DNA of 64,000 nt, taken from positions 1 through 64,000 of IMG/VR virus record IMGVR_UViG_3300036939_000082. One strand, 5' to 3'. Origin of the DNA: a virus. The notes under the pieces are model-generated. The model had not been told where the DNA came from, ran no database searches, and worked only from the letters and a program-made list of their open reading frames with translations. The position numbers were made by a program, and so were the translations under genes. Of this stretch, positions 31,386 to 58,276 are shown in pieces (positions within the stretch are counted from its first letter, which is position 1; each line of letters begins with the position of its first letter).

Positions 31386-31544
31386 TTTACTTGTTTTGTG
31401 CTTTTGGTGCTTGCTTATTTAAAAACTATCATAACTTAACTCAAATAAAACGTCAATACACAAAATTAAATTATCTAATGATACAAAAAAGATAGAAAAG
31501 ATATTAAATCTTAGTTCAGGGCAAGAAGAATAATTTCAAACAAA

Positions 31545-31575
31545 AGTGGGTGATCGGATAATCCGATCGCCCGCT
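31545..31575. terminator. Palindromic terminator downstream of the Csx3-like gene
   Basis: GTGGGTGATCGGATAATCCGATCGCCCGC can fold into a long stem and is followed by TTTCTT. It would stop the minus-strand transcript of the Csx3-like gene. Confidence 0.55.
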
Positions 31576-31578
31576 TTC

Positions 31579-31725
31579 TTATTCTAAATTATTCTTGAAC
31601 CAGTCAATTACAGGTTCCCATTCGCTGTTTCGAGCAGACTCACAAATACCAAACGGAACGTAGATTGTCAATCCTTTCCCTGTCGGCTTTGGTCCAGGTT
31701 TTTTACTGCGTCGCCGAGACAGGGA
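31579..31725 (-). pseudogene. Remnant of a small basic protein downstream of the Csx3-like gene
   Basis: An open frame ending at 31579 reads SRRRSKKPGPKPTGKG, then LTIYVPFGICESARNSEWEPVIDW. The first part resembles the 'GRPK..' start of small phage DNA-binding proteins. There is no start codon in frame before it, so the 5' end appears lost, perhaps through the repeat at 31711-31728. Confidence 0.35.
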
Positions 31726-31729
31726 AAGG
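31673..31729. repeat. Inverted repeat, 12-bp perfect arms
   Basis: CCTTTCCCTGTC (31673-31684) and GACAGGGAAAGG (31718-31729) are perfect complements 33 bp apart. Part of the right arm, GCGTCGCCGAGACAGGGA, is repeated at about 61114-61131 inside another gene. Confidence 0.6.
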
Positions 31730-31733
31730 TGGA

Positions 31734-32039
31734 CTAGCCCAAAGGGAGTACAGTACCCCTTTTGTATGTGGGCGAATTAGAGTGAACTACGATGCCACCC
31801 CCAGCTTTCGGATCGTACACGGCGATCGCATCAAACAAATTTTTGACAGAAAGTGCAACAGCCTCGTTCGCCCACATGGGCATCCCCGACACAATCACTA
31901 CACCTCCGCCACGAACCTCCGGCACTGTAAAATTTTCGAGTTCGGCGATCGTCAGCGGGTTTTGAGCATTGACGGGATTGCCGTCTTTCAAAATCTCTAA
32001 CAGCGTCACACCGTTGTTTTCAGTCACTTTAACTTCCAT
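31734..32039 (-). CDS. csx3: Csx3-family protein (CRISPR ring-nuclease-like), stand-alone
   Basis: 101 aa. The conserved Csx3 elements are present in order: GGGVVIVSGMPMW at about 44-56, an alternating helix, DAIAVYDPK at about 70-78, and GIVVHSNSPTYKRG at about 82-95. In A. fulgidus Csx3 (Crn3) the corresponding 'AVYDPRLG' Asp is important for cleaving cyclic tetra-adenylate. The histidine that precedes this strand in the cyanobacterial and archaeal proteins I remember ('H-x-Y/F') is Asn67 here, and the Arg after DP is Lys. No cas gene is nearby. It may be an active or an inactive (ligand-binding) ring-nuclease relative; a phage copy would counter type III CRISPR signalling. It has its own TTGACA promoter and terminator. 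Confidence 0.8.
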   Translation of the reverse strand: MEVKVTENNGVTLLEILKDGNPVNAQNPLTIAELENFTVPEVRGGGVVIVSGMPMWANEAVALSVKNLFDAIAVYDPKAGGGIVVHSNSPTYKRGTVLPLG

Positions 32040-32070: not shown

Positions 32071-32099
32071 ATCTTAGACGGTTGCAAGCCAGGTGTCAA
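32071..32099 (-). promoter_or_regulatory. Promoter of the Csx3-like gene (TTGACA-17-TAAGAT)
   Basis: Minus strand: TTGACA at 32099-32094 and TAAGAT at 32076-32071, spacer 17 bp, followed by AGGTAAGAG before the ATG at 32039. A near-consensus promoter suggests constitutive or early expression. Confidence 0.65.
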
Positions 32100-44270: not shown

Positions 44271-45299
44271 ATGAACACTCAACTGACACTTGCACTCGAC
44301 ATATTCCCCGACGCCAGTCTAACTTTAGAGCAAAAAATCGAATGGAGTTTAAAAGTTTTTGACAGTTTAGACGAAGAGAAAGAGTACCGACTTGCTTTTA
44401 GTGGAGGTAAAGACAGCCACGTATTACTCGGAATATACTTAAAGTGGCGCGAGTCTCGTCAAAAAAACTTGAAGTTAAATGTGGTCTTTTCTGATACGTT
44501 GCTAGAAAGTCAGCAGCTTTACAGTCTGATCGAATTGACAGAGAAGACTTGCAAGGCAAAAGAAATCAACTTTATTCGAGTTAAACCCTTGTTAGAACAC
44601 AATTTTTGGGTAATTCTGTTTGGACTGGGTTATCCTGTACCGAATCACAGGGTTAGATGGTGTACAAGCCGTTTAAAAATCGATCCAATGGAAAAGACCC
44701 CGGGCATCGGCATTACGGGTTCTCATTTTGGAGAGAGTACAAAAAGAGACAACAGACTAAAAAAATGCGGTTCCAACGAATGCGGTATCAATGAATTATC
44801 TAATACTGTTGAACCTTTAGCAATCTGGCGAAACTGCGATATCTGGGATTGGATAATACTGTACTCTGACAGTATTATCTATAACGGAGTAAGCAGTCAA
44901 TTATTGTCCACATACAACATAGCAGAAGATAAAAATGGGAGCTTGAGAATGGGTTGTTTTATGTGTCCCGTGATAGCTCAGAGTACAACAGTTAAATTGG
45001 TAAACGATGGCATCGTGTCTCCAATTACCCTCAAAATTCGGGAGATTCTTGAAATTTTGCGAAAAAAACCCAGGATTTTATCGCAAAGGACTAAAAAGAA
45101 TGGGGCAATTTTAGTGGACGCTAGAATCGAAGTTTGGGAAAAAATGAAACCTTTTTTTCCTGTACTTTTAGAAAACAACTGGATTCAGCCCGAGGTAATA
45201 CACTTGGTTGAAGAAATGTTGTCTAAGAGAACTTACCCCCCAACCTACAAACAAGATTGGATAAAAGAACAGGAACAACTTCTCAAAAGTTTAGACTAG
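44271..45299 (+). CDS. PAPS-reductase/DndC-like PP-loop protein
   Basis: 342 aa. PP-loop SGGKDS at 44-49; PNHRVRWCTSRLKIDPME at about 125-142, as in the substrate segment of DndC-type enzymes; and Cys residues in RMGCFMCPV near 225-231 with an upstream CGSNECGI, which could hold a [4Fe-4S] cluster. The family activates sulfate-type or other substrates by adenylation; some members insert sulfur into DNA or tRNA. It is shorter than true DndC (50161-51726). The last gene of a three-gene operon with a strong terminator behind. Confidence 0.75.
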   Translation: MNTQLTLALDIFPDASLTLEQKIEWSLKVFDSLDEEKEYRLAFSGGKDSHVLLGIYLKWRESRQKNLKLNVVFSDTLLESQQLYSLIELTEKTCKAKEINFIRVKPLLEHNFWVILFGLGYPVPNHRVRWCTSRLKIDPMEKTPGIGITGSHFGESTKRDNRLKKCGSNECGINELSNTVEPLAIWRNCDIWDWIILYSDSIIYNGVSSQLLSTYNIAEDKNGSLRMGCFMCPVIAQSTTVKLVNDGIVSPITLKIREILEILRKKPRILSQRTKKNGAILVDARIEVWEKMKPFFPVLLENNWIQPEVIHLVEEMLSKRTYPPTYKQDWIKEQEQLLKSLD

Positions 45300-48236: not shown

Positions 48237-49976
48237 TTAACTGTTTTTAACGCCTAGTTTTGCCGAAATTTCTCGTTGTAGAACTCTTCTAAATGCTATT
48301 TCAATATTGCAAATTCGAGTTTTGACCATATTTAATAGAGGAAGCGAGGTGATTCTAATCTCTGCGGTGTTATTGACGATCGCCACTAGGCGACCGTGCT
48401 GTCTCAATAATTCCTGCGTTCCGTAGGGTCTAACCTCGTTTAAAGTTTTATTCCACAAACGATGTAACTCGATCGCGCTTAACGGCTTGTTTTCTTCGTT
48501 AGCTTCTTGATACTTGAGTCGAGCCCACTTGGTTGAATGACCCAGTTTTTTTGCTAAATATCGCCAACTACCCAGAGAAATTTCCGATCGCCACTCTTTG
48601 CTTGTTTCGGTAAATTGATGGTATACCCAAGCAGTTGGGTACTTAAGGCGTTGGCAGTTAGCCAATAAATCATCAATTATTGCAGTGTGTGTTGGATTGG
48701 GAGTTAAATCGATCTCTTTGTCTTTGTCGTTTGCATTCAATTCTGGTTTTGGTTTTTCTCCTCCGCCACTACCCACTTTGAACGTGTTTTCAGTCAGACA
48801 GTTTGGACAAAGACATTTTAAATCGGGAATCTCGTGCGACAGCGGCTTGAAGATGTGAGAACACGATTTGCAGACAACGTGCAGGAACCGTTTAGCTTCT
48901 ATTCCAAGGCTTTGAGGTTCCAGCGACCATTCTCTTTCTTCATCTGGCAGTCCTAACGATTCCCAACTTTTGCCGTGATCGATGATTGTGGCAAAAGTCT
49001 TGCCGTCTGCCAATCTCAGTCCGCGACCGACCATCTGGAGCCACAGGCTCAAGCTTCTTGTGGGCCGCACGATCTGAACAACTTCAATACTGGGAAGATC
49101 GAATCCTTCTGAGATAATTCCGCAGTTGCAAAGGACGATCGTCTCTCCTGAGTTAAACCTGTACAGAACATCCCGCCGATCGCCCGTTTCCGTTTCTCCG
49201 TCTAAATGCTCCGCTGGAATCCCAGCAGCTTGAAAAGCTCCTGCATATTCGCGACTTCTAGCAACGTCTACAGCAAAAACCACAGTCCGGTTCCCGCCTG
49301 CCCGTCGCTTCCACTCGGCTACCACATCGTTTGGCTCTATTTGTTCGGCAACCGCTTCGCTCAATCTTTCACTATTGAAGTCTCCACCGCTGCTTTTGAT
49401 TTTGTTGGTATTGATTGTCTTGCCAGCTTGGTACAGTTTGTACTGAGACAGATATCCGCGATCGATCAGTTCCTTGGTGGACGGCCCGCAGATTAGTGAT
49501 TGAAATAGGTATTTAAACCCTTGACCGTCATTTCTACACGGAGTTGCAGTGAATCCCAAGATTTTGGCATTTGGATAGTTTTGCAAAACTTTTGTGTAGC
49601 TCCGACTGCAAGCGTGGTGTGCTTCATCAATAATTACTAGGTCTGCTGGCGGTAAATATTGGCGGCGGGCGAGCGACTGGATTGATGCAATTTGTAAATT
49701 GTAGAGAGGGTTTGGCTTGTAGCCGTTTTTGATGATTCCTGCGGAAATTCCAGAAATAGCCTCCATTTTTTCTTGGGCTTGCAAAAGCAATTCTTCTCTG
49801 TGAGCAATAACTAAGACTCGCAGTCCACTATTCAAAAACGGTGCGCTAATCGTTCCGAACGTAGGTGTTTTTCCACCGCCAGTAGCGAGTTGCACCATAA
49901 TGGAGCGAACGTCGTTTTGCCACAACTCCAATACCTTGAATTCTATTTCTTCTTGGTAATCTCTTAACTTGTACAT
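48237..49976 (-). CDS. SSL2/DEAD-box superfamily 2 helicase with zinc ribbon
   Basis: 579 aa. Motif I VQLATGGGKTPTFG (about 44-57), motif II LVIIDEAHHAC (about 113-123), motif III TATPCRN, and motif VI QMVGRGLRLADG near 315-326. A zinc ribbon with CKSC and CLCPNC (about 360-385) follows, then a helical C-terminus. SSL2-type helicases of phages open DNA for repair, recombination or modification. The leader AACCAACACAAAACAAGAACA precedes the ATG. Confidence 0.88.
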   Translation of the reverse strand: MYKLRDYQEEIEFKVLELWQNDVRSIMVQLATGGGKTPTFGTISAPFLNSGLRVLVIAHREELLLQAQEKMEAISGISAGIIKNGYKPNPLYNLQIASIQSLARRQYLPPADLVIIDEAHHACSRSYTKVLQNYPNAKILGFTATPCRNDGQGFKYLFQSLICGPSTKELIDRGYLSQYKLYQAGKTINTNKIKSSGGDFNSERLSEAVAEQIEPNDVVAEWKRRAGGNRTVVFAVDVARSREYAGAFQAAGIPAEHLDGETETGDRRDVLYRFNSGETIVLCNCGIISEGFDLPSIEVVQIVRPTRSLSLWLQMVGRGLRLADGKTFATIIDHGKSWESLGLPDEEREWSLEPQSLGIEAKRFLHVVCKSCSHIFKPLSHEIPDLKCLCPNCLTENTFKVGSGGGEKPKPELNANDKDKEIDLTPNPTHTAIIDDLLANCQRLKYPTAWVYHQFTETSKEWRSEISLGSWRYLAKKLGHSTKWARLKYQEANEENKPLSAIELHRLWNKTLNEVRPYGTQELLRQHGRLVAIVNNTAEIRITSLPLLNMVKTRICNIEIAFRRVLQREISAKLGVKNS

Positions 49977-50160: not shown

Positions 50161-51726
50161 TTAGTGTTTTTGACCAAATTTTAAGTCTGCCCACGACAAT
50201 TGCTTGTCTATATTCTCTTTTGGCTTGCTAATTAACTCCTTAATTTTTTCCATGCCATCAACTCCATTGTTAACCGCTGCACTCAACTCGTGTTTTTCCT
50301 GTGCTCGCGATATCGCATCCTCCCGAGATTCTCCATTCCGCTCAAATGCTTGCTCCAAAGGCTTATAAACGTTTTTGCGATGGGGTGATAAACGTTGCTT
50401 ATCCGTCAGACTTAGCAAGCTTGCCATCAGTTCTAGGTGATTTTTGTCGTCACCACAAACCTCTTTAAGCGCTTCCCACTCTTCATTGCCAAGGATAGTG
50501 CGCTCGTCAATATGTCGAACATCTTTAAAAACTTCACCCGTCGCTTCTTCGTAAATTCGTGGCAAACTGTCGTCAAATTCATGCTTCTGTTCTAGCCAAA
50601 TCCTGCGGATTTCACTGAGTTCTTCTGGGGTAATTAAGGTGATGTCGCGCATTTCTAGGGGTGCAGTTTTGCGGATGTGAGTCTGTGTTTCTAGTACCCG
50701 TCTGAGCCAGTGTTCGCGCCAATGTCGTAGATATGGTCCTGGTATAAGTTCGACAGACGTGGTGCCGTCGTCCATCGTCTTGTCGAATAGATCAACCCTG
50801 CCGTTCATCCGTCGATAATCGCGCCGATCACGATCGTCCGGGACTTGTAGTTCGTTCCGAATATCAAGCAACGGTTGCATCCATTCTTTTTGACTGTCGT
50901 TAATAATCATTGCTTCCATCGATTTGTCTTTGCTAACCATCGTGCAAGTCCAACAACCAAACCGAGAACTACCACAGCTAGGGGTAGAAGTATCAACTAC
51001 TAGCGGGCATTCATTATCTGCCGTTGCGCCACGATACATGACAAACAGATCTTTGTTGCTCCCGCCCCACGGATTGTCAAATTGCATCAAATACATCCAT
51101 ACCTCGTCCGTGCGCCAATCTTCAATCGGAAGGTAGATAAAAGATCCAGGATTTGCTGGGCTTGAGTTTAAATGTTTTGCTACCCTGCTTTCCCTATGCT
51201 TCGCCATATTGGTGGCACGGGTAGAACTTTCAGCACTACGAGTGCCAAGTGCCAAAACAACTTGACCGCAGGTGGCGATCGACTGACGTATAAAGACCGT
51301 GGCGGGATTGATTTTTAGACGATCTGTACACCATCGAAAATTACGCCGGGGTGCTGCATACCCTTTCCCAATCAAACAAACCCAAAAAGTGTCCTGAATA
51401 GCTGGTGTAGTGACTTGAGTTACGATCGGCATTTCTTGTTCCAATGCTGCTCGCTCCATCTGCTTCAACGAACTGCGAACTTGGGCGGACACAATTGGAT
51501 TCTCCACCAGCGTGTCATTTGTGAGTACGTAGATTTTGTGGATGCGTTGATCGATCGGTAGTTGGCGGACGGCGTTCCAAATTAACTGCAAAACCGTGGT
51601 ACTATCTTTGCCTCCACTCCAACCGATGACAATTGGATTGCCCTCTAGATATATTTGCTGAATTTCTTTGGTCAGCAGTTCGATTTCGGTCATTAGACCG
51701 GGAACGGTACGGAGAGTATCTGTCAT
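50161..51726 (-). CDS. dndC: DndC-type DNA sulfur-modification protein
   Basis: 521 aa, the length of DndC. PP-loop WSGGKDSTTV at about 36-45; NFRWCTDRLKINP at about 128-140; ALGTRSAESSTRA at about 157-169; and the Fe-S cysteines of SCGSSRFGCWTCTM near 247-260. In Dnd systems DndC, an ATP-pyrophosphatase with an iron-sulfur cluster, activates DNA for phosphorothioation with DndA/D/E. None of dndA, dndB, dndD or dndE is visible, so it is an orphan. It overlaps the ASCH gene at its start (shared A). Confidence 0.88.
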   Translation of the reverse strand: MTDTLRTVPGLMTEIELLTKEIQQIYLEGNPIVIGWSGGKDSTTVLQLIWNAVRQLPIDQRIHKIYVLTNDTLVENPIVSAQVRSSLKQMERAALEQEMPIVTQVTTPAIQDTFWVCLIGKGYAAPRRNFRWCTDRLKINPATVFIRQSIATCGQVVLALGTRSAESSTRATNMAKHRESRVAKHLNSSPANPGSFIYLPIEDWRTDEVWMYLMQFDNPWGGSNKDLFVMYRGATADNECPLVVDTSTPSCGSSRFGCWTCTMVSKDKSMEAMIINDSQKEWMQPLLDIRNELQVPDDRDRRDYRRMNGRVDLFDKTMDDGTTSVELIPGPYLRHWREHWLRRVLETQTHIRKTAPLEMRDITLITPEELSEIRRIWLEQKHEFDDSLPRIYEEATGEVFKDVRHIDERTILGNEEWEALKEVCGDDKNHLELMASLLSLTDKQRLSPHRKNVYKPLEQAFERNGESREDAISRAQEKHELSAAVNNGVDGMEKIKELISKPKENIDKQLSWADLKFGQKH

Positions 51727-54071: not shown

Positions 54072-54463
54072 GTTGTAATTGTGAAATGCCAGCGCTGTAT
54101 AGGTCAAAGCTGGTAAAGACAAGAAAAAAACATAAATGCGTAGAATGTAACGAGCATATTGCGATTGGGGAAAAGGCAGAAAAAGTAGACGCTATCTACG
54201 ATGGTAGTTTTCAGACTTTTTACACTTGCTTGCAATGTCAAGAGATAATCGAATTCATTCGTCAAGAACATGAAGACGATTTACTCAAAGACTTGAAAGA
54301 GGCACTGTGTTGTCATGGCGAACTGTACGAATTGTTGTCTGAAAGTGTTTTTGACAGTCAGGAAGAGGAAGAAGGTTATGCCTGTCATTATCGACCAAAC
54401 GTTTCTTGGTTGAATCCGTTTGTTCAAGGAAAACTATCTCTAAATATTGAGGCAAAGTTATGA
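54068..54463 (+). CDS. Zinc-ribbon-like Cys-rich protein
   Basis: 131 aa. CNCEMP, HKCVECNEHIAIGEK and YTCLQCQEI give two or more CxxC knuckles of the kind found in phage 'zinc-ribbon' proteins; acidic middle. Overlaps both neighbours by four bases. Confidence 0.65.
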   Translation: MSCNCEMPALYRSKLVKTRKKHKCVECNEHIAIGEKAEKVDAIYDGSFQTFYTCLQCQEIIEFIRQEHEDDLLKDLKEALCCHGELYELLSESVFDSQEEEEGYACHYRPNVSWLNPFVQGKLSLNIEAKL

Positions 54464-55674
54464 GAGCCTCAATCGGTTTTGCGGGCGGTGGATTGAGTTC
54501 GATCGCCCTAGAGCTAGCAGGAATTAAAGTAGTACACGCGGTTGAGAATAATCCCCAGGCAGCAGGGATTTATGCGATGAATTTCCCCGAAACAAATCTA
54601 GAGATTAAATCGATCGCCAATATTGATTGGTCGGCGATCGGGAAGATTGACTTCTGCCAAGATTCTCCGCCGTGCCAAAACTTCAGCGAGGCTGGTACCG
54701 GCGAAGAAACCGACTTAGATGTTTTTTTGGCGCAAGCCTTGGTGCGGAAAATTGAAGCGCTCAATCCCAAGTTCGGAATTATAGAGCAAGTTCTCCGCTA
54801 CTTTGGTAAAGAGTCAAAAAGCTGGGCGATCGTAGAGTCCGGGTTGAAGCGGATGGGATATAACGTCAGAGTCGATCGCGTCAACGCAGCAGACTTTGGC
54901 ACCCCTCAATCTAGAGAAAGGGGGTTTGCAATTTATAGTCGCGGTAAATTGCCTGCCGTGCTACCGTCTCACGCAGAACGAAAAGATGAAGGCACTTTGT
55001 TCGATACTTCCGTTTACGGACTGCCGACTTGGCGGGGGTGGTACGGGGCGATCGCCGACTTGTTGGCAGAACTGCCCGTCTACACGGTGGCGACTGTCGG
55101 CGGAACGCCTCTAAAAAAGCCAAACGGTCAGTACCAGTGGATTGTCAACGACAAAGAACTGACGGACAAAAACGGTTTAGCGCTTTGGCAGATTCAGCGA
55201 CTGGCGTCGGGGGCGATCGCCTCTAAATATGGGTTGTGTCAAAGCAAGGCTGGTGGTCAGAAAGACTCACTGATCAAAGATTTTAAATCCACAAGTCCAA
55301 CTGTTTTGGCATCGATTTGGAAAGGTATGCCGAAAGTGCTCGTTGGCAAGACGGGGGCGAAGAACGGGCCATTGAGCGCGATCGCCCCAGAGTATCCCAG
55401 CAACACGATTCGAGCTTTTGGCAAGGACGGACACTGGCACCGCATGGACTGCGTGTTTGGTGGAACTCCTAAAACAGGGGCGATCGATGACTACCTAAAA
55501 TCTCTTAAGGTTATCCAACTGTCCCCTCGGTGCTTGGCTCGACTTCAGGGGTTGCCCGATCATCGATTCAAGCTTTCAGGCAACAACGTCCAAGATTGTA
55601 AGGTAATCGGAAATGGAGTGGCGATCGAGCCGATGGTCGCTTACGCAAAAATATTGATAGGAGCAAAAAAATGA
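54460..55674 (+). CDS. C5-cytosine methyltransferase homologue 1
   Basis: 404 aa. Motif I IGFAGGGLSSIAL (5-17); motif IV DSPPCQNFS with catalytic Cys72; motif VIII VNAADFGTPQSRERGFAI (about 140-160); motifs IX-X near RLQGLPD...VIGNGVAIEPM. Motif VI, usually ENV, reads EQV here (GIIEQVLRY), a change in a residue that stabilises the target cytosine. Probably transfers methyl groups to cytosine C5, protecting phage DNA from restriction. No partner endonuclease is seen. Confidence 0.85.
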   Translation: MRASIGFAGGGLSSIALELAGIKVVHAVENNPQAAGIYAMNFPETNLEIKSIANIDWSAIGKIDFCQDSPPCQNFSEAGTGEETDLDVFLAQALVRKIEALNPKFGIIEQVLRYFGKESKSWAIVESGLKRMGYNVRVDRVNAADFGTPQSRERGFAIYSRGKLPAVLPSHAERKDEGTLFDTSVYGLPTWRGWYGAIADLLAELPVYTVATVGGTPLKKPNGQYQWIVNDKELTDKNGLALWQIQRLASGAIASKYGLCQSKAGGQKDSLIKDFKSTSPTVLASIWKGMPKVLVGKTGAKNGPLSAIAPEYPSNTIRAFGKDGHWHRMDCVFGGTPKTGAIDDYLKSLKVIQLSPRCLARLQGLPDHRFKLSGNNVQDCKVIGNGVAIEPMVAYAKILIGAKK

Positions 55675-57022: not shown

Positions 57023-58276
57023 ATGTTGTGTGCAACTGAATTTAGTGGGGCTGGGACAGTCGATCATGCTTTCAAGCGACGCGGTGGAAAAATAGTTTTT
57101 GCAGTTGAATATTGGAAAAAAATGGCAGATGAGATGTACATCCCAAATCATGGAGCTGAACATCTTTTAATCTCAAAAGTCCAAGATATGTGTACAGAAA
57201 GTTTTAAAATTGGTAAAGGCAATTTAGATATATTTTGGGCATCACCGGAATGCGACGAATTTTCAAAAGGCAAAAAAGGTGGTGCAGAAGGGCTAGAGCA
57301 GACGAGTTCTGCTTTTGCGATCGCCGACCACATCAAAATATTGATGTCGAAGTGTGTGGTTATCGAAAACGTCGAGGGCTACGTTGGCTCTAGGAGTTAC
57401 AACCATTTGAAACTCACATTGAGCAAGTTGTTTTATAGCACACAGACTTTCCTGTTAAATGCCGCTGACTACGGAACGCCGCAAACCAGGAAGCGGATGT
57501 ACCTGATTGCAACTCGCAAAGACATTGGCTCAGTACCGGCGATCGCCCCAACACACGCCAAGCATCCGATGCCTTCACTGTTTGGCGATCCTATCAAACC
57601 TTGGAAAGGTTGGCTTGAGGCGGTAGCAGACTTGTTGCCCGATCGCCCTTACTATACCTGGAATTCGGAAAAATCTGATTGGGTGTTCCATCAAACCAAT
57701 GGCGACCGCATGACCAACGGTTTAGCTAAGTGGCAGATGAATCGACTGAAAGAGGCGATCGCCTTTGGCAAACTCAAGGAATTCAGTTCCTTAATAGTAG
57801 ACGGTAAAAATGCTGGTCGCGAAATCACCTTTTGCAATGAGCAAAAGCCTGCCTACACGATCGTCGGCAGTTGCAATTCAGAAAGTCACTGGCCGACAGC
57901 CATACTTGTTCCGGGGGCAAACGCTGGCAACAATTCTCCAACTGTTCGGTTAGGTGACAAGCCAACAGTAACGATAACTCCGGGCGTATACCCTACGGGA
58001 GTGCTGTCGGGCGATCGGATAAAACTGAATCCGCTAAAAACCCCTGAATCTCAACTTCAAATCATTCTCGAAAACTGCATTTTTGTGAAATTTTCCACAA
58101 GAATGCTGGCGAGGTTGCAGGGGCTGAGTGACGACTACAAATTGCCTAATAACAATGCACTTGCTAGCGAAGGAATCGGCAACGGCGTTGCCGTAGAAGT
58201 TGCTGAAGCTATTTATACGGCACTTGAAAAACAAATTAATCGTAGTAGTAACGGATTCCAACGTCATGCTTGTTGA
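57023..58276 (+). CDS. C5-cytosine methyltransferase homologue 2 with PEC motif
   Basis: 417 aa. Motif I ATEFSGAGTVDHAF; motif VI VIENVEGYV; motif VIII AADYGTPQTRKRMYLIA; motif X region RLQGLSDDY...GIGNGVAVEV. Motif IV reads WASPECDEFS, so the catalytic Cys77 is preceded by Glu rather than Pro, and Asp follows in place of Gln. Some phage relatives I remember share this 'SPEC' form. It may transfer something other than methyl, or use a different activation. It is overlapped by 11 bp by the next gene. Confidence 0.82.
   Translation: MLCATEFSGAGTVDHAFKRRGGKIVFAVEYWKKMADEMYIPNHGAEHLLISKVQDMCTESFKIGKGNLDIFWASPECDEFSKGKKGGAEGLEQTSSAFAIADHIKILMSKCVVIENVEGYVGSRSYNHLKLTLSKLFYSTQTFLLNAADYGTPQTRKRMYLIATRKDIGSVPAIAPTHAKHPMPSLFGDPIKPWKGWLEAVADLLPDRPYYTWNSEKSDWVFHQTNGDRMTNGLAKWQMNRLKEAIAFGKLKEFSSLIVDGKNAGREITFCNEQKPAYTIVGSCNSESHWPTAILVPGANAGNNSPTVRLGDKPTVTITPGVYPTGVLSGDRIKLNPLKTPESQLQIILENCIFVKFSTRMLARLQGLSDDYKLPNNNALASEGIGNGVAVEVAEAIYTALEKQINRSSNGFQRHAC

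Follow-up and report, generated by a model that had tools for sequence, protein, structure and literature searches.

What does a stand-alone Csx3-like gene do in the DNA of a large phage? Csx3 is an enzyme with which bacteria break down an alarm molecule of CRISPR systems, and phages defeat type III CRISPR signalling with AcrIII-1. A first-pass annotation of the locus had accordingly seen in it a candidate counter-defence gene that might act either as a ring nuclease or as a sponge.

Fold and active residues of the Csx3-like protein

The window that we analysed, 64,000 bases long, is the first part of a virus record of 188,942 bases (IMGVR_UViG_3300036939_000082, here G000), the genes of which include a GpA-type terminase, a baseplate wedge protein and further phage proteins. 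The cyanobacterial HIP1 octamer GCGATCGC occurs in this record 127 times, while 2.7 copies are expected, and this excess points to a cyanobacterial host. A single relative was found in IMG/VR, IMGVR_UViG_3300035684_000001 (G001, L002), which has 188,553 bases. A gene-by-gene comparison has shown synteny along most of the length, the two records being cut open at different places, with protein identities of 96% for the terminase and 71% for csx3.

The frame in question (31734-32039, minus strand) encodes 101 amino acids, ends with TAG and does contain the Csx3 motifs that had been quoted for it. Its sole Pfam match is Cas_csx3 (PF09620; 42.7 bits, E 5e-11), for which the gathering cut-off is 21 bits. 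Since the score lies above this cut-off and a conserved orthologue is present in the second phage, the assignment is not due to chance. With the Crn3 equivalog model of NCBIfam the protein scored 29.5 bits and did not reach the cut-off of 55.4, and a sequence search of the PDB returned AfCsx3 alone (E 0.005-0.02). The structure comparison that had been proposed as a check led to the same family: for an AlphaFold2 model calculated from eight phage sequences (pLDDT 77), the best PDB match is the A. fulgidus Csx3 with cA4 (6yud; E 3e-6, TM 0.72), and AfCsx3 accounts for every one of the 13 top matches (E 3e-6 to 5e-5). A Foldseek search of viral structures gave no match. As judged from the model, the Csx3 fold of the protein is settled. 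Two other candidates were discarded, namely L003, a phage tail gene with a 34% match that arose by chance, and L051, a chance match of the pattern. Between the two phages, residues 1-28 are identical (window 31956-32039, synonymous changes only), and the remainder is about 60% identical.

AfCsx3 depends on two residues, D69 and H60, which sit on opposite dimer faces. The histidines H57, H60 and H80 have been called absolutely conserved; H60A and D69A abolish the activity, and R71A and H80A reduce it strongly (PMC7371418). We compared these residues by aligning the phage protein with Csx3 from archaea, cyanobacteria and phages. In the window protein, H57, H60 and H80 correspond to Leu63, Lys66 and Asn88, and in the relative to Leu, Lys and Thr. 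R46 is absent in both phages and R71 is replaced by lysine (Lys78 in the window), a change that had already been noticed. The earlier statement that the histidine before the YDP strand has become asparagine, on the other hand, has to be corrected, as His60 is aligned with Lys66 and Asn67 is the next residue; according to the alignments, it also overlooked that His57, His80 and Arg46 are lost, in both phages alike. D69 is kept as D76, together with S51-G52 (S44-G45 in AfCsx3), P54 and W56. As far as can be judged from the alignments, the best-kept part of the protein is this D69/SG..P.W face, the site of cA4 binding in AfCsx3.

With the catalytic face lost and the D69/SG..P.W face kept, catalysis of the Crn3 type appears unlikely and ligand binding the likelier use of the protein. 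The affinity for cA4 may be low, since R46 is lost and R71 is a lysine. It could still be argued that the protein is an active cA4 ring nuclease in which Lys66, Asn67 and His86 have taken the place of the Crn3 histidines: the fold and Asp69 are kept, and K66, N67 and H86 are conserved in both phages. Given the effects of the AfCsx3 mutations and the replacement of three histidines and two arginines in the phage protein, we consider this quite unlikely. Of the original proposal, the Csx3 fold and the phage location stand, as does the lack of cas10 described below, whereas the ring nuclease option is disfavoured, every histidine of the catalytic face being gone.

The reading frame beyond the stop codon

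The gene has a sigma-70-type promoter, TTGACA-N17-TAAGAT (32071-32099, minus strand), which was found as described before; the relative has the same two hexamers, likewise 17 bases apart, around a spacer of diverged sequence. The terminator that had been attributed to csx3 exists as a terminator-like hairpin (31543-31577, no strand assigned), and a similar one is present in the relative, but it does not directly follow the csx3 stop. Between the two lies a conserved frame of 53 codons in -1 phase, right after the stop codon of which the hairpin ends the unit, so that csx3 probably extends beyond its 101 codons.

This tail frame (31579-31740, minus strand; 53 codons and a stop, GLVHLSLSRRRSKKPGPKPTGKGLTIYVPFGICESARNSEWEPVIDWFKNNLE) is 81% identical to that of the relative at the amino acid level. 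Of its 36 nucleotide changes between the phages, 22 are at third positions, and there are 10 non-synonymous changes where 22 would be expected, a number as low as which was seen in none of 5000 permutations. The remaining five frames of the region contain stops. Hence the comparison shows the tail frame to be under purifying selection at the protein level; the csx3 body is under such selection too, less strongly. The first-pass annotation had missed the tail. One might suppose that csx3 is a decaying or inert gene, considering that it is rare and has lost its catalytic residues. The selection on both tail and body and the retention of promoter, slippery heptamer, hairpin and terminator make this extremely unlikely.

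How could the tail be translated? A scan for the X_XXY_YYZ pattern found the slippery heptamer C_CCT_TTG (31740-31746, minus strand) in 0 phase, 3 bases 5' of the stop codon, so that the gene ends with the heptamer followed by GGC TAG; the 17 bases TACTCCCTTTGGGCTAG are unchanged between the two phages. Ten nucleotides 3' of the heptamer there is a 12-bp hairpin (CCTTTCCCTGTC / GACAGGGAAAGG; 31673-31729, minus strand), a candidate frameshift stimulator, which forms in both phages according to RNA folding (z of -2.2 and -1.8). One of its C-G pairs has become G-U in the relative, which with two sequences amounts to weak covariation. When csx3 and the -1 frame are joined at C_CCT_TTG, an ungapped product of 153 amino acids results in both phages. 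Since CCCTTTGGG lacks a long homopolymer, we dismissed transcriptional slippage in csx3.

The main alternative to frameshifting is that translation restarts at a CTG or TTG codon past the csx3 stop, in which case the tail would be a small protein in its own right. At codon 7 of the aligned tail the window indeed has CTG and the relative TTG, and the six codons before it show three non-synonymous and no synonymous changes. However, none of the codons ATG, GTG and TTG occurs in the window frame ahead of the conserved tail start (SRR..), a Shine-Dalgarno-like sequence is absent, and the candidate start would lie inside the hairpin stem. A second gene with an equal slippery ending, TTTGGGCTAR, in both phages also speaks against reinitiation, which we regard as very unlikely.

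This second gene was found when both genomes were scanned for a conserved slippery heptamer with an adjoining open -1 frame. The scan gave five genes. Three are spurious, their frames being nested in longer genes or running antisense to them, which leaves csx3 itself and a gene for a virion protein of 332 amino acids, similar to head-decoration or tail-fibre proteins (G000:74997-75995, minus strand, L004:12997-13995, outside the window; G001:146295-147293, plus strand). It ends with T_TTT_TTG GGC TAA, followed by a conserved 20-codon tail in -1 phase (GLNFFIESPTRIWSWISTNV in one phage, GLNFLIETPTRIWSWISTNV in the other), in which 6 of the 7 changes are at third positions. A programmed -1 frameshift is thus probable for the virion gene as well. 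That two unrelated genes combine TTTGGGCTAR with a selected -1 tail makes programmed -1 frameshifting the best reading of the shared endings, one in which we have high confidence, and the sequences argue strongly for recoding of csx3.

T7 gene 10A/10B is a phage example of a C-terminal extension by -1 frameshifting, and the likeness consists in the slippery site near the stop and in the short and long forms. The extensions of the T7 type belong to structural genes, whereas of the two cases in these phages one is in an accessory gene. Accessory genes that are controlled by frameshifting would escape standard gene callers, as the csx3 tail did.

The tail is basic (RRRSKKPGPKPTGKG), and in its model (pLDDT 71) a strand and two short helices are weakly predicted. 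Searched against families, PDB chains and folds it had no match, nor did its model match any PDB structure, and among viral contigs, phages and plasmids we found no homologue except that of the relative. Rhizobium (E 8) and ShdD (E 0.4) gave weak hits that we attribute to chance. A ribbon-helix-helix reading, suggested by the predicted strand-helix-helix order, is unsupported.

Other Csx3 genes in phage-like DNA

We wanted to know how widely such genes occur. A csx3 with a stripped catalytic face is known from two sequences, those of G000 and G001; the search for homologues in other phages produced one of this type, in the syntenic 189-kb phage. Neither the Csx3-like protein nor the tail had a match in 84,980 cellular genomes, and among the INPHARED phages there was no credible match to the Csx3 of the window, of archaea or of the Pyramidobacter phage element described here. 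Phages that carry Csx16, Csx20 or Crn4 are few. In a survey of ring nucleases in 28,114 phages, AcrIII-1 was reported 36 times, Csx20 four times and Csx16 twice, and Crn3 was not listed (PMC12409355).

Intact Csx3 proteins do exist in smaller phage-like elements. Pyramidobacter sp. YE332 has an element annotated as a plasmid (NZ_CP133039.1) with a stand-alone crn3 (L029:11361-11645), a LexA-type repressor, an integrase, a DNA polymerase and a holin; the crn3 lies in a leftward operon and is, by its position, an early operon gene behind the repressor. The viral contigs L030, L031, L032, L034, L035 and L036/L037 encode Csx3 with H57, H60, D69 and H80. These residues are also kept in the Pyramidobacter element, unlike in the window protein, and R71 is kept throughout except in L036, which has a lysine. 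L038 is a broken csx3 copy. In L036 (5515-6261), the Csx3 domain forms the C-terminal part of a phage protein of about 245 amino acids.

The phage nature of the small contigs was judged by tail, head and tape-measure matches, as a Terminase_6N search among them gave no match. Ten long proteins of G002, G004, G005, G006 and G008 (four further contigs and L039) were scanned, and every contig yielded PHROG matches, to phage structural, tape-measure or other proteins. None of the six contig copies of Csx3 that we examined has a slippery ending or a comparable tail.

Cas10 was absent from all ten records searched, that is, the complete 188,942-base record of the window, the relative, the Pyramidobacter element and seven Csx3 contigs. 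The earlier remark that no cas gene is near thus extends, for Cas10, to the entire record. We consider the stand-alone phage Csx3 genes with intact residues to be candidate anti-type III genes. Their presence in other phage-like records makes counter-defence by a phage Csx3 more plausible, and a role against type III systems is, from these sequences, plausible.

A possible role in counter-defence

We propose, with a probability of about 0.5, that the gene encodes a cyanophage binder of cyclic oligoadenylate with a Csx3 fold, devoid of Crn3 catalysis, which is made as a short form and, by frameshifting, as a long one. A one-gene cassette of the large phage would yield the protein in both forms: normal termination at TAG would give the 101-residue form, and a -1 slip at C_CCT_TTG, aided by the downstream hairpin, the 153-residue form with a basic C-terminal domain. 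Having lost the metal-binding and catalytic face of Crn3 and kept most of the cA4-binding face, it would bind without cutting. The ligand might be a cyclic oligoadenylate, cA4 first of all, or a related nucleotide, and its binding would lower type III CRISPR signalling during infection. Ligand binding and the counter-defence role we infer solely from what is known of the family.

More tentatively, the two forms may be a cyclic oligoadenylate-binding core and the same core with a basic domain for nucleic acid binding or capping, which would make a tuned sponge or a regulator responsive to cyclic oligoadenylate. A sponge role is possible as far as the residues go. A 2026 paper, which counts against it, cautions that type III systems produce so much cyclic oligoadenylate that sponging could be fruitless (PMC13148439).

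Alternatively, the Csx3 fold may have been repurposed with no direct anti-CRISPR role, as a regulator or nucleic acid binder to which the frameshift adds a basic domain and which perhaps senses a nucleotide and binds DNA or RNA. Such a role would agree with the loss of the catalytic face, the strong constraint on the 28 N-terminal residues, the absence of cas10 from the record, and the strongly basic tail, for which one strand and two short helices are predicted weakly. We find it rather unlikely, as the face that is best kept is the one that binds cA4 and the tail resembles no known family or fold.

In comparison with Csx3/Crn3 (A. fulgidus AF1864; PF09620; TIGR02579), the proposed binder has in common the fold, the YDP motif with D69, the SG..P.W face and the length. 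It differs in the replaced H57, H60, H80, R46 and R71, the score below the NCBIfam cut-off, the location away from type III genes and the probable frameshift tail. AcrIII-1 (viral Crn2, DUF1874) would have a comparable purpose, the depletion of cA4 in infection, but it has another fold and cleaves cA4 rapidly, and the window protein has no DUF1874 match. Binding without efficient cleavage is what the protein would share with Csx15 and with the phage nucleotide sponges Tad1, Tad2 and Acb2, whereas the family scans of the window protein gave Csx3 only. Csx3 thus appears in phage DNA in two ways, intact in small phage-like elements and stripped in large cyanophages. The two are material with which to probe how a host off-switch may be turned to counter-defence, and the stripped form raises the question of whether a dead version acts as a sponge.

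Several other genes of the record deserve mention. Two proteins with PAPS-reductase domains are encoded in the window (50161-51726, minus strand; 44271-45299, plus strand), one of them adjoining a helicase (48237-49976); they could be part of a set for DNA or nucleotide modification. Two cytosine DNA methyltransferase genes lie at a short distance from each other (54460-55674 and 57023-58276, both plus strand). Elsewhere in the record there are two TnpB-like genes (G000:167260-168501 and 177667-179241, L009; OrfB_IS605, Cas12f1-like TNB), one fused to a DUF6575 domain, and a single open frame of 6321 amino acids (G000:134444-153409, minus strand), which is 88% identical in the relative.
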